Shown here: in pieces, positions 3,592-23,117 of the stretch | Layout of the letters: each line of letters opens with the position of its first letter | Position numbering within the stretch: the stretch's first letter is position 1 | Origin: a virus | Reading direction: 5' to 3' (one strand) | Length of the DNA stretch: 27,628 nucleotides | IMG/VR virus record: IMGVR_UViG_3300020185_000205 | Span: 1-27,628 of that record | Notes under the pieces: generated by a model | The model's database searches: none | What the model was told of the DNA's origin: nothing | The model's input: the letters and a program-made list of their open reading frames with translations, nothing else | Position numbers and translations under genes: made by a program

Positions 3592-3622
3592 TATATTTTA
3601 TTTTAAAAAAAAAAGTAAAAAA

Positions 3623-13492: not shown

Positions 13493-15280
13493 TTAATCTA
13501 TTGTTGAACCTTCCACAATATTGTTCTGTAAACTTTGAGCCGATGTAACGTCATTCGCTACAACGTAAGCCTGAACTGGTTGGTTTTCTTGACCTGCAAC
13601 CGCATCAGCTAATTGATTAGTGTCACTTGCTCCAACTATATTAAAACTTGGTGGTTTAGGTGCTGCCGATGCTGCTGCTCCTGCCCCTCCACTAGCTCCA
13701 CCGCCACCACCACCCTTTGGTACTTTGACGCTTTTTATTGCTTGTATTTGTTTAAAACCACCAACGACCGCTGCTCCTGCTGCTGCAAAACCTAATGCCG
13801 GGCCAACATAAGGGATAGAAGCTAACGATGCGTAAGAACTTTGTGCGCCTTGATAAGTGCTAATTAAAGCCTGCGATATTGCTAAGGCTTTTCCTGCTGC
13901 GGTTTCTTTTCCTGCAAGTTCAGCAAATGACCCCAAAGCATCGCCCACTTTTGCTAAATTATCTTCTTTTGTTTTGGCTTCTAAATTTGATACTTGTGTA
14001 TTAGCATCCGATATAACTTTTTCTTGTTCAGCAATCGCTTTGTTATTCTCAATATTTGTTTGCCTAGATTGTTCCATAAAATCATCCAGAGCAATTTGAG
14101 CATCTATTTTAGCTTGTGTTTCCGCATTTGCACTTTCAACAATTAATTGAAGTCTTGCAGTTTCTTTTTCTGCATACAGTAAATCTATTTGCTTTAAAGC
14201 CTCCAGTTTAGCTAATTCATCATCTATTTGTTCCGCATTAAACCTTTGGCGTTCTATTGATAAATTGCTCTCGCTTTCTAATTTTGAATTTGTAAGTTCT
14301 ATTAATTCCCTATCTAAAGCCAAGTCGTTTGCTTTCTGCTCAGAACGTAATCCCTCAACTTGTGCTAAAACACCTAAGCGATTTGCTAAGGCTTCCGTAA
14401 CAGCTACTTGATTTTCAATAGAGTTATTTTTAGCGGCATCTGCTTGAGCTGAGGCTAATTGTGCATCAGCCGTCAAAAGCATTGCTTTCTCTTGACTTTC
14501 TAAAACCTCTAATAAATCGTCATTTGCTTTTTTACGATCTGTAATTGAGTTTCTTTCTTCGTCTCTAATTTGCCTAAGTTGTTCCGCCTGTCTATCGTAT
14601 TTCTCAACTAATAAGCTTTGTCGTGCTGCTGCTAATTGTGCGTTATTGGCTAACTCAACGTTGTTCTTAGCTGCTTCTAAAGTTTCTTTTGCATAATTGC
14701 TAACTGTTTCAGCTACGCTTTCAAAACTATCATCAACCCCTGTGAACACATCAACGGTTTGTTTGCCTGCTTCTTTTATAGTATCAAATGCATCGCTAAA
14801 TTCTCCCTTTACAAGTTGCCCAATTGCTTTGCCCGCCAATCCTAAAACCTCAACTAGCTGCTCAAACCTTACTACAACACCATTATAAATACTTTCTCCT
14901 AATCCTTTAATCGCTTCGGCAGGGTTTTCAAATATAGACTTAAAAGAATCAACAACTCCGCTTGTATTATCAGCTACAAAACTCACAAAGTCATTAAAGA
15001 CAATACTAATCGCTTCAAATGTAGTGTTAAAGAAATCTGCAAACTTCTGATTTTGACTAAAAACTTCACCTAGTTTTGAAATTCCTGCTATTACCAAGCC
15101 AATCCCTGCTGCTTTCATTGCAGTACCAAGTCCCTTAAAACCTTTTGATGCTGATTCAGTTCCTTTTTCAACGTCAACCGTTGCAGAACCTAAATCAACT
15201 AAACCAGAATTAACCGCTTCAATTCCTTTGACTGCACCTTTAGTGTCGGCTTTTAAAGTAATTGTTTTTTCTATGACCAT
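13493..15280 (-). CDS. Tape measure protein
   Basis: A 595-residue protein with the layout of a short tape measure, which sets tail length and occupies the tube lumen. The N-terminal part is amphipathic with an Ala/Gly membrane-like segment (AMKAAGIGLVIAGIS, about 52-66). Residues about 200-440 form long Ala/Glu/Gln-rich coiled coils. Near the end come hydrophobic segments (IPYVGPALGFAAAGAAVVGG) and a Gly-rich GGGGGGASGGAGAAA linker. At about 1.5 angstrom per residue the tail would be near 90 nm, an estimate from the known relationship. The start overlaps the 46-residue gene by 10 bp. Confidence 0.8.
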   Translation of the reverse strand: MVIEKTITLKADTKGAVKGIEAVNSGLVDLGSATVDVEKGTESASKGFKGLGTAMKAAGIGLVIAGISKLGEVFSQNQKFADFFNTTFEAISIVFNDFVSFVADNTSGVVDSFKSIFENPAEAIKGLGESIYNGVVVRFEQLVEVLGLAGKAIGQLVKGEFSDAFDTIKEAGKQTVDVFTGVDDSFESVAETVSNYAKETLEAAKNNVELANNAQLAAARQSLLVEKYDRQAEQLRQIRDEERNSITDRKKANDDLLEVLESQEKAMLLTADAQLASAQADAAKNNSIENQVAVTEALANRLGVLAQVEGLRSEQKANDLALDRELIELTNSKLESESNLSIERQRFNAEQIDDELAKLEALKQIDLLYAEKETARLQLIVESANAETQAKIDAQIALDDFMEQSRQTNIENNKAIAEQEKVISDANTQVSNLEAKTKEDNLAKVGDALGSFAELAGKETAAGKALAISQALISTYQGAQSSYASLASIPYVGPALGFAAAGAAVVGGFKQIQAIKSVKVPKGGGGGGASGGAGAAASAAPKPPSFNIVGASDTNQLADAVAGQENQPVQAYVVANDVTSAQSLQNNIVEGSTID

Positions 15281-19661: not shown

Positions 19662-20207
19662 TTATTTTTGTGTTAATTTTATTAAATCTTTTTCTAGTCC
19701 TATTGAATATGCTTGTAATAATTCATCTGGTAATCTTTTAAATGCTGCTTCAAATGGTTTGGTAAAAAACAAACTTGCCTTTGTCCCCTTTTGATATATG
19801 CTCCTAGCAATTAAAAATGCAGTACTTTTATAAGTTAAAAACTTGCCTGTCTTTTTATCTCTGAATTGTATTTTACGTCTTTTAACATAACCTTCCATTG
19901 CCTCGGTCAAACCACCTTTCCTTCCAGTTCCACTACCAAACCTAAAAGGACTATTAGGAGCTTTTGAACTTGACGATTTACCACGAACACCTTTATCTTT
20001 AAACTTACCGTAATCAGCCATTTCAAAGCTTAGGTTAGCTCCTTTTTTATTTACCGATACATTACCCTTTAAACTATTATAAAGCCCCTTAGTATCGTTA
20101 TATGTACCATAATCAGGACTCCCTTTTGTTAAGTTGCTTCTTGATTGTTGAATAACGTATTTAGCGAACTTATTAAGTTCTTCTTGTAAGGCTTTATCTG
20201 CTAGCAT
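19662..20207 (-). CDS. HK97 gp10-like tail completion protein
   Basis: A 181-residue basic protein. The opening helix (KALQEELNKFAKYVIQQSRSN), the NSLKGNVSV strand, and the YGKFKDKGVRG turn are typical of HK97 gp10-like neck/tail completion proteins. The late FFTKPFEAAFKRLPDEL helix fits too. These proteins join tail to connector. It overlaps the upstream 156-residue gene by 7 bp, the usual pairing of a gp10-like protein with a tail terminator. Confidence 0.6.
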   Translation of the reverse strand: MLADKALQEELNKFAKYVIQQSRSNLTKGSPDYGTYNDTKGLYNSLKGNVSVNKKGANLSFEMADYGKFKDKGVRGKSSSSKAPNSPFRFGSGTGRKGGLTEAMEGYVKRRKIQFRDKKTGKFLTYKSTAFLIARSIYQKGTKASLFFTKPFEAAFKRLPDELLQAYSIGLEKDLIKLTQK

Positions 20208-20671
20208 ATTTCAATGTCGTTGTTTACAAACACATCAAAAGTTGCCGTCCATCCTGCTACCTTATTTTCAAACCTATCAACAAACGGCTCTAAATTTGCA
20301 TCACCAGTTAATTGGTATTTATCATTATATAAATCGCCACGCCTTAAAACTTGTACTAACTTATTTAAGACCGCTAGTTGTGTATTTAAAACGTCCTGCT
20401 CATTATTGTTTCCTATAAATATATCTGTGGTTGGTTCTTTACTTTCATCTACTATATCCATTGATAAAACAGAAATGTTAAACCTCAATACACTTTCTTG
20501 AGCCGCTACGGTGTTCACTATTAAATGCGACAAAGGAAATATTGATTGCTTCGATAAATCAACGTCGAACAAATCACCTTCTGTAACGGTGTTAACATTT
20601 ACGTCCGCTAGTAATTGATCTTTGATTGCTTGGGTTAATAAATAAAAACCTCTTACTCCTGTTTTTGCCAT
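20201..20671 (-). CDS. Tail terminator-like protein (156 aa)
   Basis: A 156-residue protein with a conserved-looking core LRFNISVLSMDIVDESKEP and FVDRFENKVAGWTATFDV near the C-terminus, ending NDIEIC. This pattern is familiar from small tail proteins of Bacteroidota siphophages next to gp10-like proteins. Tail terminators cap the tube after elongation. It starts one base after the stop of the frameshifted chaperone frame. The assignment is from position and general fold pattern. Confidence 0.5.
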   Translation of the reverse strand: MAKTGVRGFYLLTQAIKDQLLADVNVNTVTEGDLFDVDLSKQSIFPLSHLIVNTVAAQESVLRFNISVLSMDIVDESKEPTTDIFIGNNNEQDVLNTQLAVLNKLVQVLRRGDLYNDKYQLTGDANLEPFVDRFENKVAGWTATFDVFVNNDIEIC

Positions 20672-21402
20672 TTAATTAAATTTACTTTTTATATTTCTTG
20701 ACTCAATTTCGTTTTTCTCTTTTGTGTAGGTTAAGTATGTCAAACATTCGTGAACGTTTAATTTAGTGATATCTTCAAATCTTGTAATATCTCCGTCAGC
20801 GATTGCATAGATTGAATTGTACCATCCCCATTTGGAAGTGAACCCAGATATTGCGCTAAATTGTCCTCGTTCTGTTTGCTCGAAGAGTTCAGCATAGCTA
20901 TCGACAAGTCCTTCCCTAAAGCGTAAAAAAAAACCATCGCACCAAAACAAGCGTCCAAGGGATAATCCTTAGCAGCTTCGTTTGAATCTGGATCGTAATC
21001 TTTTAGTGTATAACGTGCGCCTTGTTTTAAATCAATCGGTCTAAATAAAACATTCATCGCTCTGTGAAGGTTATCCGTGTCACCTATAAAGGTATCTAAA
21101 TCCACATATTCACCAAAGCTTATATTTTCTAAGTCTGGTATAAAACCAAAGTCTTGACCACCTAACTGAAACCTATTTATCAACTGGTGTTCTACGTCAA
21201 ACATTGTATTAATGACTTCGCAAATATCTTTGATGTCATTTGCTTTCATTGACCGAACAACCTCAATAGGCACTTTGCAGAATATCTCAACCATTTTCAA
21301 AAGAACATCGGATTCCTTTTTAGAATCTAATTTTGAAAACTCTTGGTACTGTCCTAATGTGATTTCGTTTAGGGTTGTTGGTATCTGTATTTTTACTTCC
21401 AT
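20672..21402 (-). CDS. Frameshifted tail assembly chaperone (gpGT-like fusion, 243 aa)
   Basis: The 214-residue frame and a second open frame (20672 to about 20950) overlap. The second is in the -1 frame and has no ATG; its only possible starter is TTG at 20948-20950. At 20925-20933 the message has nine T in the zero-frame setting GTT-TTT-TTT-TAC. A one-base backward slip after Phe159 gives TTA and continues for 84 more residues, a 243-residue fusion. Tail assembly chaperones of siphophages (lambda gpG/gpGT) are made this way, at just this position upstream of tail genes. No strong downstream stimulatory structure was seen by eye. Confidence 0.6.
20758..21402 (-). CDS. Tail assembly chaperone, unshifted form (gpG-like, 214 aa)
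   Basis: The zero-frame product is a mostly helical, acidic 214-residue protein (LNEITLGQYQEFSKLDSK, then FGEYVDLDTFIGDTDNLHRA). It resembles chaperone-type proteins that coat the tape measure before tube assembly. After the slippery site it continues for 55 residues (YALGKDLSIAML onward), which also look protein-like. The overlap is therefore used in two frames. The ATG follows TTATATATTA (21405-21414) by 2 bp. Confidence 0.6.
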   Translation of the reverse strand: MEVKIQIPTTLNEITLGQYQEFSKLDSKKESDVLLKMVEIFCKVPIEVVRSMKANDIKDICEVINTMFDVEHQLINRFQLGGQDFGFIPDLENISFGEYVDLDTFIGDTDNLHRAMNVLFRPIDLKQGARYTLKDYDPDSNEAAKDYPLDACFGAMVFFYALGKDLSIAMLNSSSKQNEDNLAQYLGSLPNGDGTIQSMQSLTEILQDLKISLN

Positions 21403-21404
21403 AC

Positions 21405-21414
21405 TAATATATAA
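21405..21414 (-). promoter_or_regulatory. Start-proximal motif TTATATATTA
   Basis: TTATATATTA ends 2 bp before the chaperone ATG. The identical decamer has the identical 2-bp spacing at 9558-9567 (116-residue gene) and 13460-13469 (protease gene), and TTATATATAA does so at 11805-11814 (scaffold-like gene). A further copy at 23509-23518 is not next to an ATG. It may help translation initiation in a host that rarely uses Shine-Dalgarno pairing. Confidence 0.45.
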
Positions 21415-21448
21415 ACAAACCCTTAATATTTTAGAAAGTATTAAAACA

Positions 21449-21962: not shown

Positions 21963-23117
21963 TTATGACACCGCATATTTGCCGAAGTTTGGTCTGCTCA
22001 TTATTGAGTAAGTAGCATATCGCACCGCATCAATCAAGTGATTATTTTTATCAACGGGAGTGTTCGTTAGTTTTCCCGTTTTATCTGTAACCCATTTGTA
22101 ATTCCTAAACTCCATTATCAAATTATCGTTAGAGCTTACTAAGTGTATTTTAAAACGTTTTAGTAAGTCAATCCCTGCATTAACCGAATCCCTTCCTTTT
22201 AAACTTGGTTGTATATTGTGACCCATCCTTCTGAGTTCATCTATTAAACGGGGTTCTGCTGCATCAAAATAAATCGGGTTACGTCCTACACCTTCCTGCT
22301 TAAAATGTGTACTTAAATCACTTGTGGTCATCATAGTCCTGTATAGGTGTTCTTTGATATATAAGTTGTGGTCTTTTTTATAAACGCTTACTAACGTGCT
22401 TGGGTCATTTGTATATCCTGCATCTGCACCAAACGAAACAAGTTCAGCATCAATTGGAATGTGTGGTACTTCAAAATAATTAAATATCGTTGCCTTACTT
22501 ATTCCTTTTTCACCTAATCCATATATCTGCCAATACTGTTCGTCTGTTTCTTTTAGCCTTTCAATCTCTTTGATAATGCTAGGGTCAAGGAATGTATTGT
22601 CTAGGTATGTGGTTTTGTAAAATTCTACATCGTCCCTGTTTAATACCTTGTCATATATCCAATGGTATTCGTCCGATGGGTTATAGTCAATTACTATTTT
22701 TTCTGTGGTTCTGAACACTAGCTGTTGCCAATCTTCAAAGTCTAGCTCGTTACCTTCATTGATAAAAAGAAAATCCCTTTTACGCCCTCTAATCTTTTGT
22801 GGTTGGTCAACACTTATAAACTCAACTATGTTCCCATCTAGTGTATATTCGCTGTTTGACTTATTGTGGTGGGCTTCGTCATATTTGTTATGGGTCTTTA
22901 GTATATCAAAGAAATCACGCATTACAGACGACCGCACGGCAGGAAATGTTTTACGACAAATGGTTATCGTTTTACCTTTGTTCTTTTGACAGTAGTGGAA
23001 TATAATATACATCAATATATTGAAAGTCTTACCAGACCTCGTACCACCTTGCTCAACAACTATCTTAGTCTTGCTGTCTAGTAGGTGTTCAAATACTACG
23101 TTTACATCTATATCCAA
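21963..23117 (-). CDS. terL: Terminase large subunit
   Basis: A 384-residue packaging motor protein. The ATPase domain shows Walker A GGTRSGKT (24-31), Walker B FLFINEG (116-122) and a following DFEDWQQLVFR segment. The C-terminal nuclease domain has SFGADAGYTNDPS, with the first catalytic Asp, then IYFDAAEPRLIDEL and a late NNHLIDAVRYA with an Asp suitable for metal binding. This is the Terminase_3-type arrangement. It pumps DNA into the prohead and cuts it. It starts one base after the small subunit stop. The portal, its docking partner, is about 13 kb further along the transcript rather than adjacent. Confidence 0.92.
   Translation of the reverse strand: MDIDVNVVFEHLLDSKTKIVVEQGGTRSGKTFNILMYIIFHYCQKNKGKTITICRKTFPAVRSSVMRDFFDILKTHNKYDEAHHNKSNSEYTLDGNIVEFISVDQPQKIRGRKRDFLFINEGNELDFEDWQQLVFRTTEKIVIDYNPSDEYHWIYDKVLNRDDVEFYKTTYLDNTFLDPSIIKEIERLKETDEQYWQIYGLGEKGISKATIFNYFEVPHIPIDAELVSFGADAGYTNDPSTLVSVYKKDHNLYIKEHLYRTMMTTSDLSTHFKQEGVGRNPIYFDAAEPRLIDELRRMGHNIQPSLKGRDSVNAGIDLLKRFKIHLVSSNDNLIMEFRNYKWVTDKTGKLTNTPVDKNNHLIDAVRYATYSIMSRPNFGKYAVS

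Follow-up and report, generated by a model that had tools for sequence, protein, structure and literature searches.

Two described systems stand closest to the locus reported here, namely, on the one hand, the tail assembly chaperone pairs of siphophages, with lambda gpG/gpGT and its ratio as the reference case (PMC5009743), and, on the other hand, the Shigella mxiE gene, where a zero-frame ORF and a downstream ORF are joined by an extra nucleotide in a U run (PMC1088944). In lambda gpG/gpGT and other siphophage tail chaperone pairs, two ORFs overlap, the second lies in the -1 frame without a start of its own, a slippery heptamer connects the frames, the two products share their N terminus and the gene belongs to the tail cluster. 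In known phage sets, 26 and 36 nt separate the slip site from the stop (PMC10885494). For transcriptional slippage in bacteria, a selection threshold of nine nucleotides has been described (PMC1088944). As regards the Bacteroidia, ribosomes with an occluded anti-Shine-Dalgarno (SD) sequence still use +1 frameshifting in prfB (PMC8710568), which makes ribosomal recoding possible in the hosts of the phages considered here.

The gene described below would likewise give two products via a selected slippage site, i.e., (i) straight reading would yield a protein of 214 aa with its final 55 residues coded over a second frame, and (ii) a slip on nine or more consecutive T into the -1 frame would yield a 243-aa fusion with a conserved helical C-terminal domain.

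Organisation of the locus

In the window, i.e., the whole stretch of 27,628 nucleotides that was analysed, the gene and all features of the locus lie on the minus strand. ORF-A (214 aa, phrog_32199) occupies 20758..21402 in the zero frame, from an ATG start at 21402, and its N-terminal 159 codons are common to both products. The slippery run of nine T (20925..20933) is read in the zero frame as GTT TTT TTT TAC, with an in-frame T_TTT_TTT inside, and the -1 frame continues past the run with TTA CGC. The -1 part of the fusion (20672..20926; 84 codons, without an ATG) encodes a T-like domain with an FxxKWGWY motif, and joining past Phe159 gives 159+84 = 243 aa. On the minus strand the -1 frame is open from 20968 to 20672, its first common alternative start being a TTG at 20950. 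The 55 codons of the zero-frame tail (20758..20924) run over the -1 frame and form the dual-coding stretch. The gene of the terminase large subunit (21963..23117) lies upstream, a 156-aa gene (phrog_30964; 20201..20671) starts at the base after the -1 stop, and the gene of a 595-aa tape-measure-like protein (13493..15280) lies 5.4 kb downstream. When the coordinates were re-derived, the nine T, the -1 phase, the absence of an ATG, the join at Phe159 and the 243-residue fusion all proved to be as a preliminary description had given them; the overlap of the two frames, put there at nearly 200 bp, is real and measures about 210 bp between the open frames and about 166 bp when counted between the run and the stop of the zero frame.

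Two minor features may be recorded. The 20 bases ahead of the ORF-A ATG (window 21403-21422) are A/T-rich and kept in many loci, the commonest form being AAAAAAGTTTATATATTAATATG; they are possibly an A-rich start context or a promoter element. An intergenic T10 run on the minus strand (window 3605-3614) bears no relation to the slippage site.

Conservation of the run and of the second frame

Homologous loci were gathered by tblastn and profile scans of IMG/VR, a phage collection and GTDB genomes. This gave 389 distinct loci with both parts, at identities from 100% down to about 28%, including the isolated Nonlabens phages P12024S and P12024L and one contig of a Winogradskyella MAG; in ten further loci, mostly contigs ending at the join, one or neither part was detected. 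By raw count a single T9 in the window is unremarkable (3 matches vs 11 expected); the evidence is its conservation. The second frame is in the -1 phase in 389 of 389 loci and the run reaches at least nine T in every one of them (T9 in 307, T10 in 78, T11 in 1 and T12 in 3). Runs of 7 or 8 T do not occur among them, a result that covers additional collection scans started from distant queries. Among 148 loci checked, the -1 frame is devoid of any ATG in 118 and no locus has an ATG ahead of the run. The run and the -1 frame are thus conserved together, a comparison that the preliminary description had proposed; the second frame without the run, which it held would speak against the site, occurs in none of the 389 loci and is found in distant relatives, namely the Duneviridae and a Bacteroides phage.

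TTT encodes the invariant slip Phe in 381 of 381 aligned loci and TTC in none, the share of TTC being 16%, 16% and 35% in three other conserved Phe columns; likewise, the codon preceding the pair of slip Phe codons has T as its final base without exception, against a share of 6-54% among 23 further Val/Ile/Leu columns. A T-to-C change in the third position of the final slip Phe codon would alter the protein of neither frame in 325 of the 389 loci, and the resulting T_TTT_TTC would remain an acceptable heptamer, yet no interrupted run was seen. At least nine T are present in three registers, i.e., (i) the typical NTT TTT TTT T, (ii) TTT TTT TTT followed by CTG or CAA, and (iii) GAT or AGT followed by TTT TTT TTG. 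In all loci missing one flanking T, downstream (CTG/CAA) or upstream (GAT/AGT), the run still totals nine, and an in-frame T_TTT_TTT is present in every locus, whatever the register. On the tree the flanks of the run changed about 26 times, the CTG/CAA register having two to three origins; only about 3-4 independent origins account for the compensated cases, and in most loci the flanking T is dictated anyway by Val/Leu/Ile before and Tyr/Phe/Trp/Leu after. Runs longer than nine arise via substitution or whole codons, not via single-base indels. As such, these comparisons support a programmed switch into the -1 frame at the T run, kept with that frame.

The occurrence of homopolymers elsewhere was assessed in 831 other nonredundant genes on the contigs that carry these loci, with expectations from synonymous shuffles. 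Runs of at least nine T number 0 vs 14.0 expected, and runs of at least nine A 11 vs 58.7 expected (0.19), A8 standing at 0.67; T7 and T8 also fall below their expected numbers (ratios of 0.49 and 0.32), so that nine does not form a sharp boundary for T. This phage group strongly avoids sense-strand A runs and T runs of at least nine in its coding sequence; for A the drop falls between lengths eight and nine. This avoidance resembles the nine-nucleotide threshold described for bacteria (PMC1088944).

Selection on the overlapping frames

That the 55-residue zero-frame tail might be a genuine dual-coding stretch, to be recognised by synonymous-site suppression across the overlap, had been put forward in the preliminary description. 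Diversity was computed per zero-frame codon position in 47 representatives. At positions 1/2/3 it amounts to 0.139/0.089/0.372 ahead of the run, 0.043/0.146/0.151 in the overlap and 0.049/0.278/0.052 past the zero-frame stop, -1 third positions corresponding past the run to zero-frame second positions. Diversity at -1 third positions, as compared between regions, is 0.149 in the overlap vs 0.278 outside (p 0.003, with sites that are not independent of phylogeny), and at zero-frame third positions 0.154 in the overlap vs 0.372 (p 3e-10, with the same dependence of sites on phylogeny). When synonymous -1 codons were redrawn, 3.9 stops were expected per sequence in the zero-frame tail and none is seen; for the sequences listed, the zero frame stays open in fewer than 0.5% of the redraws. 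Both suggestions were thus borne out, as third positions are constrained and diversity lowered in both frames and stops are avoided. Stop avoidance together with third-position constraint means that, on these diversity data, selection acts on the zero-frame tail, at a minimum to keep it open; taken with the conservation of the run, the alignments show selection on the slippage site, on each of the two frames and on the dual coding.

The length of the zero-frame tail varies among outgroups, from about 17 codons in locus L235 and about 25 in the Nonlabens phages up to about 84 in a few loci, so the family does not depend on one exact length. In L235, L317 and the loci with the zero-frame stop 190-260 nt past the run, the tail is either much shorter or spans nearly the whole second frame. 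In AlphaFold2 models, where the two parts were folded apart, the zero-frame tail is predicted with low confidence, residues 179-214 scoring under 50.

The predicted fusion protein and its single-ORF relatives

The profile of the fused family aligns end to end with the single-ORF proteins of phrog_25418 (hhalign 96.3%, E 2e-9, 232 columns), the matches belonging to the Flavobacterium phages 2A, FPSV and laban6-1, the Cellulophaga phage Ingeline_1, the Polaribacter phage Leef_1 and the Bacteroides phage BT-TP2. This end-to-end alignment supports the view that the 243-aa fusion would be a complete protein. Like the present locus, these Duneviridae and Bacteroides BT-TP2 genes match over their full length and are followed by a gene of about 150 aa, and most retain Phe-Phe near the join; in contrast, they are single ORFs without T9 (T6 or less at the join), from which a second product is not expected. 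Since such relatives exist, the wider family is, on this comparison, able to manage without the slip, and the two-product system is not essential throughout. Comparing single-ORF with two-frame relatives would offer a direct way to ask what purpose the short product and the dual-coded tail serve.

Slip by RNA polymerase or by the ribosome

One inserted U and a -1 ribosomal slip on U_UUU_UUU would give an identical fusion protein, with the same peptide (Val-Phe-Phe-Leu) across the join. A slip of RNA polymerase adding one U, i.e., transcriptional slippage of the Shigella mxiE type, is inferred because a homopolymer of at least nine is kept, and not only the in-frame heptamer. As in mxiE, one extra nucleotide in a U run would lead to the longer product, except that here the gene belongs to a phage structural cluster and slippage is a prediction from sequence comparison. 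The features looked for in transcriptional slippage, namely a selected A/T homopolymer of at least about nine at the join and avoidance of such runs elsewhere, are both present. Transcriptional slippage is slightly favoured over ribosomal -1 frameshifting, at what we judge to be about an even chance, because the run counts at least nine T in three registers, T>=9 is avoided in other genes, and conserved structure or SD-like elements are lacking; counted against it are the scarcity of T7 and T8 elsewhere as well, the setting of most flanking T by the amino acids encoded, the small number of compensated cases, the in-frame T_TTT_TTT within every run and the ribosomal nature of the phage tail frameshifts described to date.

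Ribosomal -1 frameshifting on U_UUU_UUU, where the tRNA-Phe of the P site and that of the A site would slip in tandem and produce a minority gpGT-like fusion, comes near to an even prospect without reaching it. The T_TTT_TTT of every locus follows the X_XXY_YYZ pattern of programmed -1 ribosomal frameshift sites, in frame and conserved, the direction is always -1, and known tail chaperone pairs of phages work in this way (PMC5009743); on the other hand, the heptamer needs 7 T, yet runs of 7 or 8 T are absent from the 389 loci. As for stimulators, RNAalifold on 44 loci gave a consensus energy of -0.55 kcal/mol without covariation and thus no conserved downstream RNA structure, single-sequence folds downstream of the run had z-scores of -1.6 to 1.7 with nothing conserved, and no SD-like element was seen by eye in the conserved upstream sequence of the alignment, which together speak against the ribosome. 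A downstream stimulatory structure is, however, not obligatory for -1 ribosomal frameshifting. The two kinds of slippage may both contribute. Of the programmed frameshift announced in the preliminary description, the -1 join at the T run stands; the ribosome is no more than a candidate agent, a stretch of nine or more T exceeding what a heptamer needs.

What is new here is a run that never falls below nine T in three registers, the absence of T>=9 from 831 other genes, and the lack of a conserved stimulatory structure. To our knowledge, the phage tail frameshifts studied so far are ribosomal, and if RNA polymerase slips, transcriptional slippage would extend to phage tail genes as a new setting, in hosts with ribosomes that pay little heed to SD signals; a search of the open literature, outside which most subscription papers lie, returned no description of this site or of transcriptional slippage in a tail chaperone gene. 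That a large group of marine flavobacterial phages makes a tail-assembly factor in two lengths through transcriptional, not ribosomal, slippage, with 55 codons functional in both frames, is accordingly put forward as a tentative reading, its chances lying a little below even.

A possible role in tail assembly

The gene order is the terminase, the slippage gene, five ORFs (156, 181, 160, 374 and 872 aa) and the 595-aa tape-measure-like protein, beyond which come a protease, a capsid-like protein and the portal. Since the gene heads the tail gene cluster, a tail-assembly role is indicated, and the tail cluster, the shared N terminus of the two products and a similarity to phrog_166 "tail protein", which is weak (19 of 44 members, best E 7e-5), suggest a chaperone-like one; the analysis thus suggests a pair working in tail assembly in the manner of gpG/gpGT. 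The identity with the lambda tail chaperone claimed in the preliminary description holds for the architecture, i.e., a second ORF in -1 without its own start and fused through a slippery site, but fails for adjacency to the tape-measure gene, from which five ORFs separate this one, and similarity to a characterised chaperone is weak at best. Pfam and NCBIfam chaperone families gave no match, the PDB gave no convincing match by sequence or by fold, and BFVD gave one weak match named tail assembly chaperone (E 0.02). Unlike lambda gpG/gpGT-type genes, this one also has a run of at least nine T and a selected 55-codon zero-frame tail, and its slip-to-stop distance is about 165 nt vs the usual 26-36 nt (PMC10885494). 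T4 gp26 was considered as a relative through phrog_166 and rejected, as it belongs to phrog_150 (hhalign 0.1%).

A two-product gene that is real but encodes another tail-cluster factor, not a tail assembly chaperone, is a substantial possibility, if one that we hold somewhat less than evenly probable. The five intervening genes, the silence of the chaperone families and the single-product homologues in Duneviridae would all fit such a factor; its place in the tail gene cluster, the match to phrog_166 and a short/long pair with a shared N terminus, like gpG/gpGT, argue instead for the chaperone-like pair.

The second frame as a separate gene, and current annotation

A second frame translated as a separate gene, from its own non-ATG start or by translational coupling and without any fusion, is very improbable. 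The TTG at 20950 in the window could serve it, and in the P12024S/L annotation a separate ORF starts with an ATG located at the overlap; however, the -1 frame lacks an ATG in most loci checked, the conserved domain begins at the run, ahead of the P12024S/L ATG, relatives encode both parts as one protein, and a separate gene gives no role to the invariant T at silent sites of the run. Still more remote, and effectively refuted by the conservation observed, is a decayed or mis-sequenced single gene with an indel within the T run, the true gene being one ORF as in Duneviridae: single-ORF homologues do exist, homopolymers are error-prone and phages 6H and 2A differ by indels at the join, but the 389 distinct loci, drawn from many metagenomes and two isolates, share one frame relation, contigs from so many assemblies excluding sequencing error, longer runs did not arise by single-base indels, and the zero-frame tail is open and constrained.

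With the two-product gene as the retained reading, the second half of the protein would be missing or split in the current annotation of a widespread phage group, P12024S/L carrying it as separate hypothetical proteins. In these Nonlabens phages (genes 38-39 and 40-41; about 30% identity), the T9, the -1 frame and the position directly after the terminase are as in the present locus, whereas the zero-frame tail is shorter and the parts are annotated as two hypothetical proteins. P12024L gene 41 (L082, 6528-6695) and P12024S gene 39 (L083, 3528-3695) have been annotated with an internal ATG as their start; the T9 run, about 80 nt ahead of it, is where the conserved -1 frame begins, and both annotations are therefore probably truncated. 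The homologue in Flavobacterium phage 6H (L387, 10044-10927), split into two frames, was considered as a second frameshifted case and set aside, as the near-identical 2A and FPSV-F7 have one 293-aa ORF and differ from it by small indels at the join; by this comparison, the 6H gene is a frameshifted indel variant or a sequencing error.
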